From the NCBI GenBank assembly GCA_017457585.1, contig JAFTHD010000115.1, positions 1 to 9,687 of the forward strand: a stretch of 9,687 nucleotides of DNA. Reading direction: 5' to 3'. Positions 1 to 9,687 of this stretch are shown here, piece by piece (the stretch's first letter is position 1; each line of letters starts with the position of its first letter). This DNA is from Bacillota bacterium. GTDB taxonomy: Bacteria; Bacillota_A; Clostridia; Peptostreptococcales; Anaerovoracaceae. Under the pieces are notes generated by a model. The model had not been told where the DNA came from. It did not search any database and saw only the letters and a program-made list of their open reading frames with translations. Made by a program: the position numbers and the translations under genes.

Positions 1-46
1 ACACTATGAAGTTTTCAATATGCGCGCCGCGACTTCCGTCGCGAAC
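1..46 (-). other. Probable stable-RNA (rRNA) operon leader
   Basis: The transcript from P2 would begin with a perfect hairpin, CGCGAC-GGAA-GTCGCG (28-43), followed by TTGAAAACT (10-18). TTGAAAACT with neighbouring T/A-rich bases is a recurrent element of rRNA leaders and 16S-23S spacers in Firmicutes. The leader has no ribosome binding site and no start codon with an open frame. I infer that 16S rRNA, or possibly a tRNA cluster, begins beyond the edge of the window. No rRNA sequence itself is seen. Confidence 0.5.
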
Positions 47-52
47 TATTTA

Positions 53-81
53 AGTATACTGCCACACTTTCATCTTGTCAA
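53..81 (-). promoter_or_regulatory. Strong promoter P2 upstream of a probable rRNA/tRNA operon
   Basis: The minus strand has a perfect TTGACA (76-81), a 17-bp spacer and TATACT (53-58). It lies about 109 bp downstream of P1 and in the same direction. Paired near-consensus promoters like these are typical of stable-RNA operons in Firmicutes. A small hairpin (TTCCG/CGGAA, 102-119) lies between the two. Expected start is near 46. Confidence 0.82.
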
Positions 82-127
82 CAACTTTTTTCACTTTTTT
101 CTTCCGTTTTTCATCGGAATCCCTTTG

Positions 128-201
128 AAAAAAGAGGCTGACTTCTTGCGACAGCGTTGTAATATTACCACCGCGCTTTCTCTCTTGTCAACCTCTTTTT
201 T
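128..201 (-). terminator. Terminator-like inverted repeat enclosing a promoter
   Basis: On the minus strand AAAAAAGAGGTTGAC (187-201) pairs with GTCAGCCTCTTTTTT (128-142) over 15 positions with one G-U, separated by a 44-nt loop. The T-run at the 3' arm makes a classical intrinsic terminator, 27 bp after the U32 stop codon. The 5' arm overlaps the -35 of the first promoter, and the loop contains its -10 and start. Only transcripts coming from the U32 gene would carry both arms. The large loop lowers efficiency, so the strength is uncertain. Confidence 0.6.
162..191 (-). promoter_or_regulatory. Strong promoter P1 upstream of a probable rRNA/tRNA operon
   Basis: The minus strand has a perfect TTGACA (186-191), an 18-bp spacer and TAATAT (162-167). 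The -10 is embedded in the palindrome GTAATATTAC. It points out of the window to the left, where no gene of this window lies. Expected start is near 154. Confidence 0.75.
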
Positions 202-228
202 TATGTTTTTGCATGTTTTTAATTGGAC

Positions 229-2448
229 TTACTTTGTACTTTTTGGGGTGTTTATTCTAATAACGGACTTATCTCCACCTTGTGTCCTTGTGATGGAATA
301 TTTTGCTCCCATTCTATCCACTATATATCGAGAGTTAATCGGATGCTCCGTTATCATGAGCGGGATGTCATCTTTGAGCTCTTGTCTTGTCTCATAGGAA
401 TCACAGGCAGGAATCGCCCCCAAATCCTCAATCGCTTTTCGGCCCTGGCTATTATAGATGTTCAGTCCGGAGTCGGCGAAAACCTTTACTCCCGCTCTGA
501 CAAATCTCTCTATCCACCCAAGGTTTCCTATAATGATTCCCGTATGCTTTACTGCATTTACGATCTCGGAAAAGTTGCTCTCTATATATTCATCCAGCAC
601 GCCTTTGCTCACGGAATCAATATACGGAATCATTCCATCATTTTGGGTATCAGCACTGCTCTTCATATAATCCATAAGCGCCACTCTGTTCCAATCAACG
701 CTGCGCACGTGGCTGAAACATTCCTCTTCATCCGTTATACACGCCTGCACTTTGCCGAGAACGTCTCCTGTTGCTGCGCACCGCGACCTTTTGAATGCTC
801 TTGCTCTCGACTGATCCATCAGCTTGACCGCTTCTCTCCTGAGACCGTTTACCACCGACTTTGGAATGCTCACATTCGTTCCGATTCTTATGCGAATTCT
901 TTTGGCCTCATACACGGTACCGCCCAGTTTGACGAGTTGTTCTCTTACGTGATCTTCGGAAGCCGGCATCCTATCCGCCGCTTCAAGAGCGTTGTCACCC
1001 TTCACCGTTACCTTATCACTTCCGCATGCCATGGTCAGAACCGGCACTCTTCCTTCAAATCCCGTAAAATCGAAGGTTACCCCTGTTTTTCGCGAAAAAT
1101 CGTCAGCAAATGATTTTCTCGCCCTTTCATAAAGTTCCGCCGAAGTCACCTTGAAGATACGGTCTCCCGGGCTTACGCGCTCCTTGATATCTCCAATTCG
1201 CAAGGCATTTTTGCCAATTTTCTTCCTATATGTTACTACGTTTCCTGCCGGCTTGTGGCCTGCCGCCTCATCGCCAGGTCGTATCTCAACGCCATCACCG
1301 ATAACAATATCCTCCCCGTTTTTTAGGGAGATGTCGATGAGGGTGCTTCCTTTCTTCGAAGAAGTTACCTGACCCACATGTATGCCCATATTCTTGGGAG
1401 ACGAACCACTCAGCAAGTTTTCACCAGGATTTCCGAATAGATACCCTGATGTAAATCCGCCCCTGTTGAAAATCTGCGCAAGGTCTCTCCGATCTTCATC
1501 GGTTACACTGACCGTCCCTGTCTCGGCATACTGATCGAGATATTTCCTATATATAGATGTAACGATTGCCACGTACTCGGCGGATTTTAACCTGCCCTCA
1601 ATCTTCAGAGAATCCACACCGGCCTCGGTAAGCTGCGGAATGTAATCAATCGTACACAGATCTTTCGGGCTCAAAAGGTATGACGTTCGTCCTTTATCAT
1701 CGGTATACGGAAGTCTGCACGGCTGGGCACACATTCCCCTGTTGCCGCTTCGGCCGTTTACGCCGCCGATAAGCCTGCTCATCTGGCATTGGCCGGAGTA
1801 ACACATGCAAAGGGCGCCGTGGGCGAACACTTCGATTTGTATGCTTTCAGCTTCTGGCTTCAAGATTTGTATACTTTCAGCTTGCGGCTTCAAGATCTTC
1901 ACACTTTCAGCTTCTGGCTTCAAGATCTGTATGCTTTCAGCTTCGGGGTTTGCCGATGATATGGTGTCATGACACGCCTCTGCCAGCACCCGTATCTCTT
2001 CCAGGCTCAGCTCCCTTGCCGGCACAATACGGCTGTAGCCAAGCTCTCTTACGGCATCCAGCGCGTATTTATTATATACAGTCGCCTGGGTCGACAAATG
2101 CATGGGCATGTCGGGCAAATACTGATGAATGAGTCTCCCCAGTCCAAGGTCCTGAATGATTAGCCCATCCACACCTATGGTATAGAGAAAATGCGCATAA
2201 GAAAAAGCCTTAAACAGTTCGTCATCCCTGACGAGTGTGTTTAAGGTTACGTAAAGCTTCACATTTCTAAGATGTGCGTACTCCACAGCCTCTTTCATCT
2301 CTTCGTCGCCAAAGTTGTCTGCACGCATGCGGGCGTTAAAAAGGGACCCACCCATGTAGACTGCGTCTGCCCCATTGAGGACAGCCGCGCGAAGCTGTGA
2401 GAATCCGCCGGCCGGAGCCAAAAGCTCCGGCACAGAACGCTTCTTCAT
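229..2448 (-). CDS. Peptidase U32 family protein with DUF3656, RlhA-like
   Basis: 739 aa. The N-terminal U32 barrel opens PELLAPAGGFSQLRAAV (7-23) and contains HLSTQATVYN, the cysteine region HGALCMCYSGQC (210-221) followed by GRSGNRGMCAQPCR (232-245), LKIEGRLKS and FNRGGFTSGYL. DUF3656 follows at about 450-550. Although named collagenase or protease, characterised members of this architecture (E. coli RlhA) are needed for 5-hydroxylation of 23S rRNA C2501, and relatives modify tRNA or ubiquinone. The conserved cysteines are thought to hold an Fe-S cluster. An RNA-hydroxylation role is inferred here. Residues 168-205 are an unusual decapeptide repeat just before the cysteine region (see the repeat entry). 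The start has AGAGG upstream and PELLAPAG in the normal place. The protein is slightly longer than E. coli RlhA (653 aa), partly because of the repeat. The stop is TAA at 229. Confidence 0.9.
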   Translation of the reverse strand: MKKRSVPELLAPAGGFSQLRAAVLNGADAVYMGGSLFNARMRADNFGDEEMKEAVEYAHLRNVKLYVTLNTLVRDDELFKAFSYAHFLYTIGVDGLIIQDLGLGRLIHQYLPDMPMHLSTQATVYNKYALDAVRELGYSRIVPARELSLEEIRVLAEACHDTISSANPEAESIQILKPEAESVKILKPQAESIQILKPEAESIQIEVFAHGALCMCYSGQCQMSRLIGGVNGRSGNRGMCAQPCRLPYTDDKGRTSYLLSPKDLCTIDYIPQLTEAGVDSLKIEGRLKSAEYVAIVTSIYRKYLDQYAETGTVSVTDEDRRDLAQIFNRGGFTSGYLFGNPGENLLSGSSPKNMGIHVGQVTSSKKGSTLIDISLKNGEDIVIGDGVEIRPGDEAAGHKPAGNVVTYRKKIGKNALRIGDIKERVSPGDRIFKVTSAELYERARKSFADDFSRKTGVTFDFTGFEGRVPVLTMACGSDKVTVKGDNALEAADRMPASEDHVREQLVKLGGTVYEAKRIRIRIGTNVSIPKSVVNGLRREAVKLMDQSRARAFKRSRCAATGDVLGKVQACITDEEECFSHVRSVDWNRVALMDYMKSSADTQNDGMIPYIDSVSKGVLDEYIESNFSEIVNAVKHTGIIIGNLGWIERFVRAGVKVFADSGLNIYNSQGRKAIEDLGAIPACDSYETRQELKDDIPLMITEHPINSRYIVDRMGAKYSITRTQGGDKSVIRINTPKSTK
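1834..1953 (-). repeat. Four in-frame 30-bp tandem repeats inside the U32 gene
   Basis: Units are 1834-1863, 1864-1893, 1894-1923 and 1924-1953, the last diverging at its end. Each encodes PEAESIQILK or a close variant (PEAESVKILK, PQAESIQILK, PEAESIQIEV), occupying residues 168-205. The period is a multiple of three, so copy-number change would keep the frame. It lies between the helix ending LAEACHDT and the strand IEVFAHGALC, where relatives usually have a short linker, so the extra length looks like a local expansion. The peptide is charged and probably helical or flexible. Confidence 0.93.
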
Positions 2449-2572
2449 ATCTTTTCCTCTTATATAATTTGCCCTTATCCGACGCTTTCAGCGCTGCAAC
2501 ATATGCCTTTTTTCAAAGTTTCACGTATTACCGCATTGCTTTCCACAGCAGCAGGCTGAACCATGGCTACGC
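2449..2572. other. Intergenic region glnS to U32 gene
   Basis: 124 bp without a convincing gene. On the minus strand there are only short imperfect stems (for example CGCT-GAA-AGCG) and no T-tract, so no intrinsic terminator is clear. AT-rich TTATATAA sits too close to the ATG at 2448 to be a standard -10, and no good -35/-10 pair is visible. AGAGG (2456-2460) is the ribosome binding site of the U32 gene. The U32 gene may be read from the glnS transcript or from a weak promoter here. Confidence 0.4.
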
Positions 2573-4219
2573 TTATTTTTTCTTCCAGGAGCTCTTCAGA
2601 CCAACAATCTTGTTGAACACCTTCTCCTCATCCGTTGTCAACTTGCTATCTGCAATGTAATAGCCCTTGCGGAAGAACTGGAACCTTTCTCCTGCCTTTG
2701 CATCTCCCAGCGACGGTTCTGCATAAGCGATAGTCTCAACGAGGGATTCTGGATTCATGATCTGGTTTCCTTCTTCGTCGTCTATCATCAGATAATCGTA
2801 GTTCCTTATCCTGATCTTAACTGCTGTCTTGGCATCAACCCAGTGAATCGTACCCTTCACCTTGCGGCCTTCGAATCCGTTGCCGCTCTTGGTTTCAGGG
2901 TCATATGTGCAGAGCAGCTCCTTAATTGAGCCGTCTTCATTTTTTACAACTTCATTGCAGGTGATGAAATAAGCACCTTTGAACCTTACTTCATTTCCCG
3001 GGAAGAGTCTGAAATACTTTTTAACCGGCACTTCCATAAAGTCATCGCCGTCAACGTAGAGTTCTCTGCTGAATGGAACCTGTCTGTTTCCCAGTTCAGG
3101 AACCTCCCTGCTGTTCTCAATCTCCATCATCTCGCTCTGGTCTTCCGGGTAGTTGGTGATGATGACTTTAATAGGGTTTTCTACCACGTTTCTGTTCTCG
3201 ACCTTCGTCTTAAGATCATCCCTTACACAGGCATCCAGAAGATCCGCTTCAACCGTGCTGTTTGCCTTGGCAACGCCGATTCTCTCGCAGAAGTCTCTTA
3301 CTGCCTCAGGCGTATAGCCCCTCCTTCTGATTCCTGCTATGGTCGGCATCCTCGGATCGTCCCAGCCGTCAACGTCCCCATCGTCAACCAGCGCCTTCAG
3401 CTTTCTCTTGCTCATGACTGTATTCGTCAGGTTCAGCCTTGCAAACTCGATCTGCCTCGGCGGCTTATCCCACTTGCCTACTGCCTCGAGAACCCAGTCG
3501 TAAAGAGGTCTGTGATCCTCAAATTCCAGGGTGCAAATGGAGTGAGTAATTTTCTCAATAGCGTCCTCAATAGGATGAGCAAAATCGTACATCGGATAGA
3601 TGCACCATTTGTCACCCGTATTATGATGTGTTGCGTGCGCGATCCTGTAGATAATCGGGTCTCTCATGTTGATGTTAGGCGACGCCATATCTATCTTTGC
3701 ACGAAGAACCTTCTCGCCGTCGTCATATTTGCCTTCCTTCATCTCTTCAAAGAGTTTCAGGTTCTCCTCAACGCTTCTGTTTCTGTACGGGCTCTCGATT
3801 CCCGGCTCTTTTAACGTGCCCCTGTACTCCTTTATCTGTTCCGGTGTCAGATCACAGACGTAAGCCTTCCCGTCCTTAATGAGCTTCACCGCACACTCGT
3901 ACATCTCGTCGAAATAATCGGAGGCCCACAGTCTCTTTTCCCACTGGAATCCCAGCCACCTAACGTCTTCCTCTATGGAGTTGACATACTCCATATCCTC
4001 TTTCACAGGGTTTGTGTCATCGTACCTGAGATTGCACTTGCCGTTATACTTTGCAGCAGTCGTAAAATTGAGGCATATGGACTTGGCATGTCCTATGTGA
4101 AGATAACCGTTCGGTTCAGGCGGAAATCTCGTCAAAATATCCTGATAGCAGTTCTGTTCTTCCAGATCCTTATCTATCGCATTGTGAATAAAGTTGGTGT
4201 TTTCGAATACTTCGGCCAT
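2573..4219 (-). CDS. glnS: Glutaminyl-tRNA synthetase
   Basis: 548 aa, close to the 554 aa of the E. coli enzyme. It charges tRNA-Gln with glutamine using ATP (EC 6.1.1.18) in the cytoplasm. The class I motifs are HIGH (41-44, in [14 protein letters not shown]) and the KMSKS equivalent VMSKRKL (268-274). LRYDDTNP (64-71) and [20 protein letters not shown] mark it as GlnRS rather than GluRS. The C-terminal anticodon-binding beta-barrel region is complete, ending SSWKKK. Many Firmicutes lack this gene and make Gln-tRNA through GatCAB; those with glnS are thought to have gained it by transfer. The start is set by the AGGAGG described separately. It is last in an apparent surE-DUF2156-glnS operon. 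No clear terminator follows. Confidence 0.97.
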
Positions 4220-4225
4220 GTCTGC

Positions 4226-4231
4226 CCTCCT
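4226..4231 (-). promoter_or_regulatory. AGGAGG ribosome binding site of glnS
   Basis: A perfect AGGAGG lies six bases before ATG 4219 and shares its last-read upstream base with the TGA stop of the preceding gene. An ATG at 4234 is in frame, but this site would then be inside the coding region and nothing comparable precedes it. The site therefore fixes the start at 4219 and suggests translational coupling. Confidence 0.85.
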
Positions 4232-5166
4232 CATCTTACTGTTTCACCTATATATTTGTGCAATAACTTATACGGGTGATACGAAAGCTTCATCTCTCTG
4301 AGATTTTCAAGCCCCATATCCTCTTCCCTATTAATGAATCTTGCCCGCTCCTTTGCCTTCTCGCAAAAAGTGCTGAGAACCAGCTGGTATAGTCCTCTGT
4401 AGTTTGTATTGGCCTTCTCAATGTGCTCCACGATGGTATCCTTGCCGAACCAGCCGCCAAACGCCATGGCTTCAATCTTGCCATCAATCCTTATGACGCA
4501 CCCGAGCATATCCAGGGTGTCGGCGTTCCTGAGAAGATCCACCATAGCTTCCTCTTCCATGAGCAGGAATCTCATTTCCTCCGGTGGAATGTTCTTGCGA
4601 CCGTTAAACTCCGCTATGAATGCCATGATTTCATCGGTCATTTCCGGCCTGATATCTTCGATCTCATACTGGTAGTTTTTCAGGAAATAATTTAGGTGAT
4701 TCTTCTTGCCGTGGAGATTCCTACCTCTGAACTTGGAAAGTCTGTCGGTTTCGTATATATAGTCGAAGTTTGGTCTGTCTTCTCTAAATTCCATAAATGG
4801 CGCCGCCTGCCTCATCATATCGAGCATGTGCTCCGGCACCAGCCTTATGGTGAACGGATGGCCGGCTCTTTCGAACTTTTCCCTTGCCAGCCTTATGGTC
4901 TCCTCCAGGCTTGCAGGGTCATACTCTCCGGTTCTCGTCATCGGCGCCATCATAAAATGGGTTTCCTGCCCCGACTCAAGTTCCAGGTGACTCAGGCCCT
5001 CAATACAAAGGTAGTCGCCGATGATCTCCCACGAAAACTTGTTTATGTCACGCCACATATACAGAGATGAAAAGGACGATGCCGAGCATTCATACTCGTA
5101 ACTTTCAAAGAAATCCCTCAGAGGTTCTCTGTCTTCCGCAGCGATTGGATTCTCAAAAATAAGCAT
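4231..5166 (-). CDS. DUF2156 (phosphatidylglycerol lysyltransferase C-domain-like) protein
   Basis: 311 aa. It resembles stand-alone DUF2156 / LPG_synthase_C proteins, a doubled GNAT-like fold related to the soluble catalytic domain of MprF. Family-like stretches are [16 protein letters not shown] (146-161), the MAFGGWFG strand (234-241) and [19 protein letters not shown] (278-296). MprF moves an amino acid from aminoacyl-tRNA to phosphatidylglycerol. Here no membrane segments are present, so the protein is cytoplasmic and its acceptor is unknown. The start follows the surE stop by only 3 bp and has no strong ribosome binding site nearby (a G-run lies about 17 bases away), suggesting coupling to surE translation. 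Its TGA stop overlaps the AGGAGG of glnS. Being packed against an aminoacyl-tRNA synthetase gene fits, but does not prove, use of aminoacyl-tRNA. Confidence 0.85.
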
Positions 5167-5169
5167 AAC

Positions 5170-5934
5170 TTAATCGCAAAGCCCCCAACTTTTTATCTCT
5201 TCGATCTTGCCATAATAAGTCATGTCCCTGTGAATCGGTGTAATCGTGGCATATCCTTCCTGATCTGCAATAACGTCCAGCGTATCCGGCAATCCCTCGT
5301 ACATGAGCGGTGCTCCGCTGTAGGTGTAGTCAATTTCCGTCTTTGCCGCTTCTTCCGGCGAGATATCCTCGTCGTAGTCCCGCTCGCCGATAACGGTATA
5401 TTTCACGCCCTTGACCTGTTCTGCCGGTATGTTTGGAACGTTTATGTTAAGCACCATATCAGGTGTCATCTTCCCTTCCGATCCGGTTACAGCTCTTACT
5501 GCCAGCTTCTTCGCGTACTCGAAGTACTCCGCCTGGTGGCTGCCTACTGATACGGCCACCGCCGGCACTCCGCAAACGGTCCCCTCAATTGCCGCAGAAA
5601 CCGTCCCCGAATAAAGGGTGTCCGTTCCAAGGTTGCTGCCATGGTTGATTCCTGCAAAGACCATGTCGATCTTGATTCCCCGCGCCCTCAGAATCCTGTA
5701 TCCGATTTTGACGCAGTCTGCCGGCGTTCCCGTCATGGCAAATGCCGCAACAGCATTCTCAAAATCCACCTGGCTTGCGTGTATAGACCTGCCCGTGGTG
5801 ATGGCGTGGCTGAAGGCACTTCTCTGTCCGTCGGGCGCACAGACATAAACGTCCGCCACCTCTGACAGAGCCTCCACCAGTTCCTTTATACCCCGGGCAT
5901 TGATTCCGTCGTCATTTGATACAAGTATATTCAT
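5170..5934 (-). CDS. surE: 5'/3'-nucleotidase SurE
   Basis: 254 aa, normal family length. SurE dephosphorylates nucleoside 5'- and 3'-monophosphates (EC 3.1.3.5 / 3.1.3.6) in the cytoplasm, some members also acting on short polyphosphate. The start MNILVSNDDG carries the metal-binding Asp8-Asp9. Ser39 (in GQRSAFSH) and Asn97 (FAGINHGSN) supply the other metal ligands. GTPADCVKIG and the run LYSGTVSAAIEG followed by GVPAVAVS are further signatures. AAGGA lies a few bases before the ATG. It heads an apparent operon with the DUF2156 protein (3-bp gap) and glnS. All catalytic residues are present, so an active enzyme is expected. Confidence 0.97.
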   Translation of the reverse strand: MNILVSNDDGINARGIKELVEALSEVADVYVCAPDGQRSAFSHAITTGRSIHASQVDFENAVAAFAMTGTPADCVKIGYRILRARGIKIDMVFAGINHGSNLGTDTLYSGTVSAAIEGTVCGVPAVAVSVGSHQAEYFEYAKKLAVRAVTGSEGKMTPDMVLNINVPNIPAEQVKGVKYTVIGERDYDEDISPEEAAKTEIDYTYSGAPLMYEGLPDTLDVIADQEGYATITPIHRDMTYYGKIEEIKSWGLCD

Positions 5935-6017
5935 GAATATTCCTTAGTTATTATCGTTATTTCTGTCCTTTTATCTATCGCCTGCGATTTGCTCATATCC
6001 TGCAAATTCACCCGCAT

Positions 6018-6026
6018 ATTATAACA
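6018..6026 (-). promoter_or_regulatory. Extended -10 promoter for surE operon
   Basis: The minus strand reads TGTTATAAT, a perfect extended -10 (TGnTATAAT). No good -35 is visible at 16-18 bp; that position falls inside the terminator hairpin. Transcription would start near 6011, about 77 bp before the surE ATG. Together with the adjacent hairpin this marks a boundary between the sirtuin operon and surE-DUF2156-glnS. Confidence 0.6.
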
Positions 6027-6049
6027 CAAAAGTCCGCCATCTGCGGACT
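6022..6049 (-). terminator. Probable intrinsic terminator after the sirtuin gene
   Basis: On the minus strand AGTCCGC (6043-6049) and GCGGACT (6031-6037) form a 7-bp stem with a 5-nt loop, 8 bp past the sirtuin stop, followed by TTTGTGTT, a moderate U-tract. Further out, CGCATATTA and TAATATGCG make a second 9-bp inverted repeat (6049-6057 and 6013-6021) that brackets it. Because the T-tract is imperfect, termination may be partial. The same bases form the upstream part of the surE promoter. Confidence 0.65.
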
Positions 6050-6057
6050 AATATGCG

Positions 6058-6783
6058 CTAATCTCCCAAAACTTTGCCGATGGAATCGTGAATAACCAAA
6101 GTCGCTTCTCCATCCGCCTGAGTACTGGTCTTGTTTATGAGTATGAGGTCCTTTCCCCTGAAGTAATGAATGAGTCCTGCTGCCGGATAAACCACCAGGG
6201 ATGTGCCGCCGACTATGAGGGTATCCGCTTCAGCGATTGCATCCACCGCACCTCTTATTACGGAATCATCCAGAGGTTCCTCGTACAGAACCACGTCCGG
6301 CTTAATGATGCCGCCACATACAGGGCACTTGGGCACTCCCCTCTCACAGTTCTTCTCGTCCATTATGAACTCCAGATCGTAAAATTTGCCGCAGTCCATA
6401 CAGTTGTTTCTGAGGGTAGAGCCGTGCAGCTCGTACACCTTCTTGTTTCCTGCTTTCTGGTGAAGCCCGTCTATATTCTGGGTAACGATTCCCGTAAGCT
6501 TCCCTTCTTCTTCAAGCTTTGCAAGGGCCAGGTGAGCCTTGTTAGGCTCGGCGTCGGTATATATGAGATTCTTCTTGTAGTAGTCGAAGAAAACTTCCGT
6601 ATTCCTCTCAAAGAAGCTTCTGCTCAGCATGGTCTCAGGGGAATGTCCGTATTCGTTCATCGCATGATACAGTCCCGATTCCGATCTGAAATCAGGGATG
6701 TTGCTCTCGGTTGAGACTCCCGCTCCGCCGAAGAACACCACCTTTTTGCTTCTTTCCAGTATTTCTTTAACTCGTGCATCCAT
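6058..6783 (-). CDS. cobB: NAD-dependent protein deacylase, Sir2 family
   Basis: 241 aa, the usual bacterial sirtuin length. NAD-binding motifs are GGAGVSTESNIPDFRS (19-34), TQNIDGLHQKAG (101-112) and GTSLVVYPAAG (193-203). The catalytic histidine is H120 in ELHGS. A structural zinc is held by Cys128, Cys131, Cys153 and Cys156. The enzyme removes acetyl or other acyl groups from lysine, consuming NAD+ and releasing nicotinamide and O-acyl-ADP-ribose. The start at 6783 is chosen because AGGAGG (6790-6795) sits six bases before it and the sirtuin motif follows in normal register. An in-frame extension to 6882 would run back into the previous gene. The gap to that gene is 32 bp with no promoter seen, so this is probably the third gene of the SOS-type operon, though a repair role for it is only inference. 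The symbol follows common bacterial usage. Confidence 0.95.
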   Translation of the reverse strand: MDARVKEILERSKKVVFFGGAGVSTESNIPDFRSESGLYHAMNEYGHSPETMLSRSFFERNTEVFFDYYKKNLIYTDAEPNKAHLALAKLEEEGKLTGIVTQNIDGLHQKAGNKKVYELHGSTLRNNCMDCGKFYDLEFIMDEKNCERGVPKCPVCGGIIKPDVVLYEEPLDDSVIRGAVDAIAEADTLIVGGTSLVVYPAAGLIHYFRGKDLILINKTSTQADGEATLVIHDSIGKVLGD

Positions 6784-6815
6784 GGCGCGCCTCCTGTACA
6801 AATGAAAAAAACTGT

Positions 6816-7559
6816 CTAAACTCTTGGCAGAAATTCTATTAAGTGCTTGCGGTACCGCATGGGAACGAAGTTCCGCTGGCACCTTGGGTTTGTTCGCTCC
6901 TTGATGGCGATATTATCAAAGTAGTCCTGCCACAACCGCTGATAATCCTTTTCTTCTGAGGAATAATCCGGAATATCCACCGCATCAAAATCTGAAATAT
7001 ACCATTCTTTTTGATATGCGATAAGGGCTTTTCCCCGACCTACATCGTGAATGATAAAGGGCTGATTCTTGAATCTGTCCGTAAAGTGGTGCCAGAGCAG
7101 TTCCGTCACATCGTGATCCGGCTCTATCTGTCCGTACATCACTCCGCTCTTCAGCTCTGAAAACCTGACGAACTGGCACATCTTTTCCTTCTCTGTCCCT
7201 ATCTTCTGAACGACAGAAAGAAGACCTGCAACGGTGTCATCTCCGTGCATGAGGGTTACCTTCGGTCCGACCCTGAATCCGAGAACCGCGAATCTCAAGA
7301 TCATCATCTCTTTGCCCGGAACGCTTGACAGAAACACCTTGTACATGCACCTGACGGCGTAATGGGAGATTTTCTCCTCCATAGCGTTATATACGCGTTC
7401 CGCCTTATCCGCTTCCGTCTCAACGGTCATGTAGTTTCCCAGCATGTTCATCTGATAGTTCTCTTTTGTGAATATGCCGGAAGCCTTCTCCGTGTAGTAG
7501 TGGTGATACACGCATGTGAGCAGTCCTTCAAAGCTTCCATCGTAGAGGTAATCCATCAT
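6816..7559 (-). CDS. TIGR03915/DUF4130 family putative DNA repair protein
   Basis: 247 aa. It begins YLYDGSFEGLLTCVYHHY, the hallmark opening of the family usually found beside the TIGR03916 radical-SAM protein, and ends with NPRCQRNFVPMRYRKHLIEF, its typical closing motif. In other bacteria a domain of this kind is fused to a uracil-DNA-glycosylase-like (UdgX-type) domain, which also ties it to DNA lesions. No enzymatic motif is obvious to me, and the activity is unknown. It probably works with the radical-SAM protein as partner or substrate handler. The first ATG overlaps the upstream stop by 4 bp (ATGA). A second in-frame ATG follows at once (7556), and GGGGGTGAT just upstream fits either, with better spacing for the second. 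Translational coupling to the radical-SAM gene is likely. The protein is soluble, with no signal peptide or membrane segment. Confidence 0.9.
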   Translation of the reverse strand: MMDYLYDGSFEGLLTCVYHHYYTEKASGIFTKENYQMNMLGNYMTVETEADKAERVYNAMEEKISHYAVRCMYKVFLSSVPGKEMMILRFAVLGFRVGPKVTLMHGDDTVAGLLSVVQKIGTEKEKMCQFVRFSELKSGVMYGQIEPDHDVTELLWHHFTDRFKNQPFIIHDVGRGKALIAYQKEWYISDFDAVDIPDYSSEEKDYQRLWQDYFDNIAIKERTNPRCQRNFVPMRYRKHLIEFLPRV

Positions 7560-8962
7560 ATCACCCCCGATTCGGACAGCTTCTCCATGGCAGCTCCCTG
7601 CTCCAGGAGTTTCCAGTTGTTGTCGAACATGGACATCTGAAGTCCGTTTTCAAGTCCCAAGATAGCCCCTCGTATTTTCTCCGGCAGGAAGGGAACATCA
7701 CCGTAATACCTGCCCCTGCAGGTGAGAAAGTACTTGGCACGCTTCATGACGACACCCATCTTTTTCAGTTCATCGAAGCCTACCTGGCTGACCTTGCGCG
7801 CCCTGACGATCCGCTTGGCTGAAGTTGCCCCGATGCCGGGAATCTTGAGAAGATCCTCATAGGAAGCTCTGTTTATCTCTATCGGAAATCTGTCCAGATT
7901 CCTTATGGCCCAGGACACCTTCGGATCCATAGCCGGGTCAAGATTCTGCTCCCCGGAAGAGAAAAGATCGCTTGCTGTGAACCCGTAAAATCGCAGAAGC
8001 CAGTCTGCCTGATAGATTCGGTGCTCACGCTCTAAAGGTGGAGCTGAGGCTGCGTCGGGAAGAAGGCCTGACGTAACGACCGGAATATAGGCTGAGTAAT
8101 ATACCCTCTTCATCTTGAAGGTCCTGTACAGATTCTCACTGGTCGTCAGAATACTTGCATCGGTCTCTTTGCCCGCACCTATTATCATCTGTGTGGTCTG
8201 CCCTGCCGGCGCAAATGCACTGCCATCCCGCTTCTTCCTGTAAACCTGAGGCAGATTCCCAGAGTCTCCCACCGCCTTAAGCCCTACGAAATTCTCCGGC
8301 ACGTTCATCCTCTGCCCCTTGAACATGGTCCCGGCCCCTACAAGAGAACCCCGCTCTATGAGTGTATTCGTAATCTGTTTCATAGGCGTGAAAATCTGCT
8401 TCGGCTTCTTCTGAGGTGCAAAGGTTCTCAGGCTCTCTGCGTTTGGCATCTCGATGTTCACGCTGAGCCTGTCCGCCACAAGTCCGATTTCGTGGAGCAG
8501 CTCCGGGGAAACACCCGGTATGATCTTCGCATGGATGTACCCGGAAAACTGATACTCATACCTGAGTATGGATATCGCCTTCAGGATTCTCTCCGCAGTG
8601 TAATCCGGTGAGATTTCAACGGCAGAGCTTAAGAACAGCCCCTCTATGTAATTCCTTCTGTAGAACTCAATGGTCAGCTTTGCCAGTTCCTCCGGCTCAA
8701 AGCTTGCCCTCGGAAAATCGTTGTCACGTCTGTTCACACAGTAGGCACAGTTGTACTCGCACTTATTGGTAAAGAGCACCTTCAAAAGTGAAATGCACCT
8801 ACCGTCTGCGGACCAGGAATGACACAGTCCTGCAGCGGTTGCGCTGCCGATCGCACCGCTATTGCTCCTGCCTACACCGCTGCTGGAGCAGGAAACGTCG
8901 TACTTTGCGCTGTCGGCAAGAATCTTCAGTTTCTCCATGATCGCATTCATTGAAGTCGCCAT
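7556..8962 (-). CDS. Putative DNA modification/repair radical SAM protein (TIGR03916 type)
   Basis: 468 aa. The radical-SAM signature is CEYNCAYC (Cys68, Cys72, Cys75), which binds the 4Fe-4S cluster that cleaves S-adenosylmethionine. Ahead of it lies a family-typical stretch with KYDVSCSSSG and GLCHSWSADGRCISLLKVLF, holding three more cysteines (25, 47, 56). After the radical-SAM barrel, residues about 362-392 form a helix-hairpin-helix with PGIG (375-378), a non-specific DNA-binding fold. The radical chemistry is therefore presumably directed at DNA. The reaction is not known to me; repair of a damaged base is the usual suggestion. The start is supported by GGAGG six bases upstream of ATG 8962. 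The gene leads an operon, its stop overlaps the next start by 4 bp, and its promoter carries two LexA boxes. The family call is firm; the substrate is unknown. Confidence 0.93.
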   Translation of the reverse strand: MATSMNAIMEKLKILADSAKYDVSCSSSGVGRSNSGAIGSATAAGLCHSWSADGRCISLLKVLFTNKCEYNCAYCVNRRDNDFPRASFEPEELAKLTIEFYRRNYIEGLFLSSAVEISPDYTAERILKAISILRYEYQFSGYIHAKIIPGVSPELLHEIGLVADRLSVNIEMPNAESLRTFAPQKKPKQIFTPMKQITNTLIERGSLVGAGTMFKGQRMNVPENFVGLKAVGDSGNLPQVYRKKRDGSAFAPAGQTTQMIIGAGKETDASILTTSENLYRTFKMKRVYYSAYIPVVTSGLLPDAASAPPLEREHRIYQADWLLRFYGFTASDLFSSGEQNLDPAMDPKVSWAIRNLDRFPIEINRASYEDLLKIPGIGATSAKRIVRARKVSQVGFDELKKMGVVMKRAKYFLTCRGRYYGDVPFLPEKIRGAILGLENGLQMSMFDNNWKLLEQGAAMEKLSESGVI

Positions 8963-8982
8963 GATATACCTCCGGTAAAGGA

Positions 8983-9011
8983 ATTATATCATGGCGAGAA
9001 CGAATGTTCAA
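8983..9011 (-). promoter_or_regulatory. Promoter of the radical-SAM repair operon
   Basis: On the minus strand TTGAAC (9006-9011) is followed after exactly 17 bp by TATAAT (8983-8988). The -10 is preceded by TG one base upstream (TGATATAAT), the extended -10 motif. Transcription should start around 8976, giving a very short 5' leader before the GGAGG at 8969-8973 and the ATG at 8962. The -35 element is buried in the LexA boxes, so the promoter should be strong when derepressed. Confidence 0.8.
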
Positions 9012-9024
9012 GAACGGATGTTTA
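8997..9024. promoter_or_regulatory. Two abutting LexA/DinR (SOS) boxes
   Basis: The plus strand reads AGAACGAATGTTCA (8997-9010) directly followed by AGAACGGATGTTTA (9011-9024), a 14-bp tandem repeat identical at 12 positions. Each copy contains GAAC-RNRY-GTTY, the core of the Gram-positive LexA (DinR) consensus CGAACRNRYGTTYG; only the outermost C and G are not matched. The first box overlaps the -35 hexamer (9006-9011) and part of the spacer, and the second lies just upstream of it. LexA bound here would block RNA polymerase, and RecA-stimulated LexA cleavage after DNA damage would release it. The operator call is inferred from the motif, its position and the repair-type genes it controls. 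Confidence 0.82.
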
Positions 9025-9070
9025 CTCGGGCGCCCCTTCTGGTCTTACGGCTTATCCCGCAATTTGTCTT

Positions 9071-9089
9071 CTGCCGGCAGTCCCGGCAG
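9071..9089 (-). other. GC-rich hairpin in the gntR-radical SAM intergenic region
   Basis: CTGCCGG pairs with CCGGCAG across a 5-nt loop, about 50 bp after the GntR stop codon. No run of T follows on either strand, so it is not a convincing intrinsic terminator. It could stabilise the 3' end of the gntR transcript or be an operator. A separate 8-bp palindrome (GGGCGCCC) lies just beyond it towards the radical-SAM promoter. Apart from these, the promoter and the LexA boxes, I see nothing else in 8963-9137. Confidence 0.4.
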
Positions 9090-9137
9090 TTACGATATTT
9101 TATTCAGCTTTCGGACATTTCGCCGCCTCTGCTCCGG

Positions 9138-9687
9138 CTATACGCTTCCGCAGCGGCGCTCCTTCGTCCTGTTCATATGACGCTCCATGGCCTGTGCTCC
9201 CGACTTGACATCTCCGTCAACGAAAGCCTTAAAAATCGCCCTGTGCTCCTCCAGCACCTGCTGAAGATAGTCGTCATCGTATACGGAATCCGCGTTCTTA
9301 AACTTAACGATATTCTGATATGATGTGAGCAGCTTCTGTAGCTGTCTGTTGCCTGAGGCTTCGTAGATCACCTGATGAAATCCCGTGTTGATGGTGAGCA
9401 TCTTGTCTATGTCGTTTCGCAGTGTATAGAACTCCATAAACTCAAAGGTTTCTTCCAGTCTGTCCATCTGATCTTCGTCTATGCGCTCGATGGCCCACTT
9501 GACGGCCTGAATTTCACAGATCTTTCTGAGCTCGAACAGGTCCTGGTAATCCTGATCGCTCATTCCGACTACGAAGGCGCCTCTGTTTAATATCATCTCA
9601 ACGAGGCCGTCGGCTTCAAGCTGTTTTAGGGCTTCCCTTACAGGCGTCCTGCTGATCTGATACCTGCTGCAAAGCTCCTGTTCCGTA
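9138..9687 (-). CDS. GntR-family transcriptional regulator, FadR/FCD type (5' end outside window)
   Basis: Partial gene: the frame stays open to the window edge, so at least the first part of the winged-helix domain is missing. Upstream of the internal ATG at 9596 the frame reads TEQELCSRYQISRTPVREAL followed by KQLEADGLVE, the recognition-helix and wing region of GntR regulators (the TPVREAL motif is diagnostic). ATG 9596 is therefore not the true start. The rest is an all-helical FCD-type effector domain, with acidic and histidine residues in the expected places (FHQVIYEASGNRQL, EEHRAIFKAF, MERHM), which in this family bind a metal and a carboxylate ligand. The protein should be a cytoplasmic ligand-responsive dimeric repressor or activator. 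The ligand and targets cannot be read from here. It ends with TAG at 9138. The downstream operon has its own promoter, so co-transcription is not required. The family call is firm; the specific role is unknown. Confidence 0.93.
   Translation of the reverse strand, partial: TEQELCSRYQISRTPVREALKQLEADGLVEMILNRGAFVVGMSDQDYQDLFELRKICEIQAVKWAIERIDEDQMDRLEETFEFMEFYTLRNDIDKMLTINTGFHQVIYEASGNRQLQKLLTSYQNIVKFKNADSVYDDDYLQQVLEEHRAIFKAFVDGDVKSGAQAMERHMNRTKERRCGSV

Follow-up and report, generated by a model that had tools for sequence, protein, structure and literature searches.

Abutting LexA-type boxes over the -35 element of a radical-SAM/DUF4130 operon: a probable double SOS operator conserved in one clade of relatives

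In a Bacillota bacterium of the Anaerovoracaceae (assembly GCA_017457585.1), two abutting palindromes of the LexA type lie in front of a pair of genes of the families TIGR03916 and TIGR03915, the first of which encodes a putative radical-SAM DNA-repair protein. The arrangement was found in the stretch of 9,687 nucleotides analyzed here (contig JAFTHD010000115.1, positions 1 to 9,687), referred to as the window, and it raises the question of whether both boxes are operators and what a second box would add to the first. At 8983-9024, a TIGR03916-TIGR03915 operon, likely extended by a SIR2-type gene, probably has its promoter and its SOS operator, doubly locked by LexA.

A direct read of the + strand gave two 14-mers without a gap between them, AGAACGAATGTTCA at 8997-9010 and AGAACGGATGTTTA at 9011-9024, identical at 12 of 14 letters. 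Their cores, GAAC-GAAT-GTTC at 8998-9009 and GAAC-GGAT-GTTT at 9012-9023, have their centers 14 bp apart and are the only matches to GAACN4GTTY with 0 mismatches in the whole window. On the gene strand, which is the - strand, the order is the distal box AAACATCCGTTC (9012-9023; GAACGGATGTTT on the + strand, with 1 mismatch to GAACN4GTTC), TT, the proximal box GAACATTCGTTC (8998-9009), and then TG and TATAAT. Judged by its letters, the promoter under the two boxes is a strong one of the extended -10 type: the -35 hexamer TTGAAC (9011-9006) straddles the junction of both boxes, and a spacer of 17 bp separates it from the -10 hexamer TATAAT (8988-8983) with TG in front. The GAAC of the -35 doubles as the first half-site of the proximal box. 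The initial annotation had described two abutting 14-bp LexA-type copies over the -35 of a near-consensus, extended -10 promoter, both with the palindromic core and an internal RNRY; the read confirmed this, and both copies fit GAAC-RNRY-GTTY.

One scan for TIGR03916 gave 80 related loci, with Candidatus Colimonas fimequi near the top and Anaerovorax odorimutans further down. Conservation of the repeats, which had been proposed as a check, was observed: the 14-bp tandem is present in 31 promoters, that of the window and those of 30 relatives, with an unvarying distance between the proximal box and the -10. These 31 rows were selected for both boxes having at least 7/8 letters, which inflates the box columns. 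The lack of rows with two mismatches is therefore partly by construction; a listing of boxes with at least 6/8 letters contained no 6/8 box at the distal place beside a proximal box. The proximal box was GAAC-GTTC in 30 of the 31 rows. The distal box was perfect in 1 row and one letter off in the other 30, as GAAT-GTTC in 22, AAAC-GTTC in 7 and GAAC-ATTC in 1. Values of 1.79-2.0 bits were reached by the inner half-sites and the intervening TT, and the distal box kept its inner half-site, the AA of its outer half-site and the R..Y core. In the same rows, columns -50 to -38 had 0.04-0.49 bits, all but one below 0.3, and were near random. Since the boxes are conserved next to upstream columns that are near random, the tandem has been kept by selection and not by recent descent alone.

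The arrangements were also compared on a tree of 44 rows, made up of 43 of the 80 loci and the window; the incomplete L039 and L043 and 35 more distant loci were excluded. One clade had the 14-bp arrangement in 30 of its 34 rows, so the selection of rows had removed little. Among the other rows of the tree, the second box lay 19 or 22 bp upstream in 3 and 28-32 bp downstream, just past the -10, in 8, and the three remaining rows were arranged otherwise. Across the 14-bp, the 19- or 22-bp and the 28-32-bp classes, the second box changes its place and its partner, joined to the -35, does not.

This variation bears on a possible, though doubtful, explanation, according to which the proximal box alone works as the LexA operator and the distal box is a weak or alternative site that is not filled together with it, as suggested for dinBox1/1b of phage GIL01. 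The single mismatch of the distal box in 30 of 31 rows, mostly as GAAT (22/31), agrees with it, and so does the constancy of the box at the -35 beside a partner that is placed at 14, 19, 22 or 28-32 bp or is missing; for GIL01, a doubly bound band was not seen according to the available text of the study (PMC4551915). However, an unused site would not keep its inner half-site, its outer AA and its R..Y core on a near-random background, and beyond this operon one genome has a 14-bp pair at ruvC and three have one at a helicase gene.

The tree itself recalls a second, distinctly improbable explanation, in which LexA control is real and the tandem has no special effect, being an inherited ornament of one clade. 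The 14-bp class required 4 changes on the 44-row tree versus 12.0 when shuffled, and none of 500 shuffles gave so low a number; this clustering makes shared descent part of the story. Plain descent, however, would have erased the box, since columns -50 to -38 lost their similarity in these rows.

The identity of the repressor was addressed with the promoters of relatives, including those of recA and lexA. At TIGR03916, a box was counted when GAACN4GTTY or RAACN4GTTC occurred on the gene strand at most 260 bases upstream; one locus with no upstream DNA (L039), one weak lexA match (L110) and one recA match with the start missing (L170) were dropped before counting. Such a box was found upstream of 75 of the 79 related TIGR03916 genes with upstream DNA, at a density of 4.64 per kb versus 0.026 per kb elsewhere in the same loci. 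RecA was above its cut-off in 28 of 33 relatives' genomes, and GAACN4GTTY lay upstream of recA in all 29 loci examined (start region present; one locus partial). Boxes also preceded radA, two uvrB genes, a gene for a DnaQ-family exonuclease and, with family matches below the curated cut-offs, a Pol IV-like gene and two yneA-like genes. Additional boxes were noted at some of these promoters: at recA (L141-L169) a second box lay 56-58 bp upstream of the first in 12 of 29 and 29 bp upstream in 2, and the yneA-like genes of two relatives (L198:2690-2763 and L202:2326-2398) had two boxes 61-62 bp apart.

LexA was above its cut-off in 29 of the 33 genomes, some of which encode further LexA-like proteins. 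Of the 29 regions upstream of these lexA genes (L081-L109), 27 had the variant AAACN4GTTT, whereas the strict GAACN4GTTY was present in one. In its fuller form the variant is the symmetric (C)AAACN4GTTT(A/G), and AAACN4GTTT was absent from the 61,302 bases covering the lexA genes and what follows them; it may be a weaker self-operator of lexA. The initial annotation had proposed a check for the same motif at recA, lexA and uvrBA promoters and had named a different motif at recA or lexA as a ground for refutation; the motif was present at recA and at two uvrB genes of relatives, and the variant at lexA partly supplies that ground. SOS control of the operon, as far as promoter motifs can tell, is well supported by the boxes at TIGR03916, recA, uvrB and the other genes, with the mostly variant lexA promoters on the other side, and the earlier interpretation as a whole is partly supported. 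Both the lexA variant and the further LexA-like proteins could be taken to mean that the boxes serve another repressor with a GAAC-type palindrome, but the presence of the same box at every recA promoter examined and at other SOS genes makes this highly improbable, and because of the strict box at recA the assignment to LexA stays strong.

Within the window, single boxes with at most 1 mismatch were no commoner than in shuffles (15 versus a mean of 13.57), as would be expected of chance resemblance. A pair at 14-bp spacing, however, is expected 0.10 times with up to 3 mismatches, and the one place found had 0 mismatches on the gene strand, so the pair is not due to chance, a negligible explanation already refuted by the conservation in relatives.

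Moreover, the 33 relatives' genomes were searched for the tandem at other genes. The pattern AAN5GTTCN2GAACN4GTTY was found at 27 distinct places in 26 genomes, and a control pattern at 1 place. The TIGR03916 operon accounted for 26 of the 27 (25 by sequence mapping and G012:C47 by identical letters), and the remaining one precedes a helicase gene. A looser search in these genomes (RAACN4GTTY twice, with a gap of 0-20) gave 26 pairs at 12-32 bp in 21 of the 33: 13 at the TIGR03916 operon, 2 at recA, 2 at radA, 1 at ruvC, 3 at helicase genes and 5 at others, of which three were inspected (L216, L217 and L218) and two lie in G008:C65 and G005:C43. Eleven of the pairs were at 14 bp, comprising 7 at the TIGR03916 operon, 3 at helicase genes and 1 at a RuvC-like frame. 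As a control, the looser pattern read backwards matched at 32 forward places, of which one genome contributed 13; this total is not below that of the real pattern. Weak pairs can therefore be chance, and the signal in this search lies in how the pairs cluster at SOS genes and at a single spacing, not in their total. The notion that tandem boxes are exclusive to the TIGR03916 operon was rejected in its strict form, given the pairs at recA, radA, ruvC and the helicase.

The helicase genes with the 14-bp tandem belong to three relatives (L116:1501-1526, L227:1501-1526 and L229:1501-1526) and are ResIII/SNF2-like; two of the three proteins are 65% identical, and the helicase is possibly a mobile element under SOS control. 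In genome G009 (L220:1501-1526), the 14-bp pair GAACAGACGTTT, GT, AAACAAATGTTT stands at the start of the RuvC-like frame, which was recognized by eye.

Pairs of perfect boxes were also searched for in 398 genomes of the phylum of G006, with a pattern that demands two perfect boxes and would miss the window's own pair. They were found in 46 genomes at 65 places, 64 of them listed (control, 18). Among the 64 listed pairs, 53 were at 25-36 bp, 0 at 14 bp and four at 12, 15, 15 and 16 bp; a single repeat array in G285 supplies five of the 64, and copies in G388 another five. The array (L249; G285:C8:2451-2598) consists of GAACCACAGTTC-like units 22-33 bp apart and is unlike a LexA operator. The two boxes of the window are close enough for adjacent dimers; their 14 bp correspond to 1.33 turns and would set two dimers about 120 degrees apart, so the arithmetic behind the annotated placement on different faces of the helix was correct. 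The idea that 14 bp generally reflects a fixed helical phase was rejected, because relatives use 19, 22 and 28-32 bp too and most of the listed phylum-wide pairs are at 25-36 bp.

The genes behind the promoter lie on the - strand. The annotated family assignments were upheld by scores above the curated cut-offs for both the TIGR03916 radical-SAM putative DNA repair protein with a helix-hairpin-helix (7556-8962; 584.5 bits, cut-off 343.5) and its TIGR03915/DUF4130 partner (6816-7559; 243 bits, cut-off 112.25), whose genes are adjacent, on the same strand, and overlap by 4 bases. Radical-SAM and helix-hairpin-helix domains were found in the first protein, and its predicted structure is a radical-SAM barrel. 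For the DUF4130 protein, structure prediction suggested a fold resemblance to RecJ (DHH superfamily); a profile comparison gave no support for kinship of DUF4130 with RecJ, and the fold resemblance remains a lead. TIGR03915 was present in 70 of the 80 related loci, and contig ends cut some of the other ten.

A gene for a SIR2-type NAD-dependent deacylase (6058-6783, - strand) starts 32 bases after TIGR03915; the ATG at 6783 was chosen as its start, the listed open reading frame beginning at a GTG at 6882. No recognized terminator-like site was found in the 32-base gap, and a terminator-like hairpin follows the SIR2 gene at 6031-6049 (- strand) as a possible operon end, a weak signal with 1 found versus 0.7 expected. 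On these grounds a three-gene operon is likely, and SIR2 is probably its third gene. A SIR2 homologue occurred in 18 of the 80 related loci, at most 221 bases from TIGR03915 in 12 of the 18, and in 16 of the 62 loci having at least 1.8 kb after TIGR03915; the sirtuin may be SOS-induced in the lineage of the window. Elsewhere in the window, a U32-peptidase-like protein (open reading frame 229-2448) has an in-frame tandem repeat at 1834-1947 (- strand), with PEAESIQILK-like units at about residues 168-205.

In the double lock favored here, one LexA dimer would sit on the proximal box in an undamaged cell, backed by a second on the distal box, which is slightly imperfect. As the first dimer would cover letters of the -35 and the second would stand behind it, RNA polymerase would be kept off the -35. 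After DNA damage, RecA would trigger the self-cleavage of LexA, both boxes would be vacated, and the strong extended -10 promoter would fire. The distal box would deepen and delay repression; it would not create it. The parts of this proposal differ in strength. The boxes, the promoter, their conservation and the motif in common with recA of relatives can be read in the DNA itself. Control of the operon by LexA is very likely and its induction after DNA damage would follow the scheme above; occupancy of both boxes is somewhat favored, and cooperative binding at the pair is only tentatively suggested.

Several observations weigh against the double lock. The lexA promoters mostly carry the variant box, and a box was missing within 260 bases upstream at 4 of the 79 TIGR03916 loci (L057 and three Synergistales). 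In GIL01, binding of LexA to dinBox1/1b is described as non-cooperative, both sites perhaps not being filled together (available text of PMC4551915). Additionally, no convincing terminator was found between the upstream FCD/GntR gene and the operon, so read-through from that gene could bypass LexA.

Both SOS control of such an operon, as a prediction, and tandem LexA boxes, in colicins and phage GIL01, are already known; the comparisons that follow extend as far as the available parts of the cited papers. CAC3343-CAC3344 of Clostridium acetobutylicum were predicted in a 2013 study to be LexA-controlled and were unlisted in RegPrecise (PMC3828012). By the wording there, CAC3343 is likely a TIGR03916 protein, which makes this pair a predicted LexA target like the operon of the window, and the available text describes no tandem. 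DUF4130 was predicted to be a mutagenesis-related enzyme associated with SplB-like radical-SAM proteins and uracil-DNA glycosylases (PMC3765255); the protein partners are the same as here and the tie to SOS is by gene neighborhood, with no operator described in the part available. TIGR03916 was not found by name in the literature searched, and the main text of the C. difficile regulon paper contains neither "radical" nor "tandem" (PMC4234289). The same paper gives GAACN4GTTC as the box of Bacillus subtilis.

Colicin operators resemble that of the window in having two LexA boxes very close together (PMC2994835, PMC4482635, PMC11332147). Cooperative binding was reported for them (PMC11332147), and the basal expression of the genes behind them was not detectable (PMC2994835, PMC11332147). 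However, colicin boxes are of the E. coli type CTGTN8ACAG, overlap, and lie just downstream of the -10 of plasmid toxin genes, whereas those of the window are of the GAAC type, abut, and lie over the -35 of chromosomal repair-type genes. The nearest Gram-positive precedent found is GIL01 dinBox1/1b, which shares the Gram-positive LexA and the neighboring boxes, one good and one imperfect at P1; unlike those of the window, the boxes at P1 come after the start point, and binding is aided by phage gp7. At P3 (dinBox2/dinBox3), a changed spacing was without effect on the LexA-gp7 complex (PMC6182141). As far as the searches reach, what is new is the abutting, clade-conserved double box over the -35, in which the box at the -35 is intact and the distal one departs by a single letter in 30 of 31 rows.

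A bolder proposal, which we regard as unlikely, is that most genomes of the clade reserve a double LexA lock on the chromosome for the radical-SAM/DUF4130 operon, which includes a sirtuin in the lineage of the window. The distal box would be held one letter short so that the operon would open late and under heavy damage only, because its product would harm or mutate undamaged DNA; a double lock is likewise found at colicins.

What the TIGR03916 and TIGR03915 proteins do is so far a matter of prediction. Their conserved double SOS operator indicates that the cell calls for them once its DNA has been damaged, and it hints at a cost of their activity at any other time, which makes their function testable. 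Moreover, the relatives offer a natural series of LexA operators, with boxes 14, 19, 22 and 28-32 bp apart and a distal box that is perfect or one letter off, with which one could measure the effect of box spacing on how deep SOS control is and when it acts.
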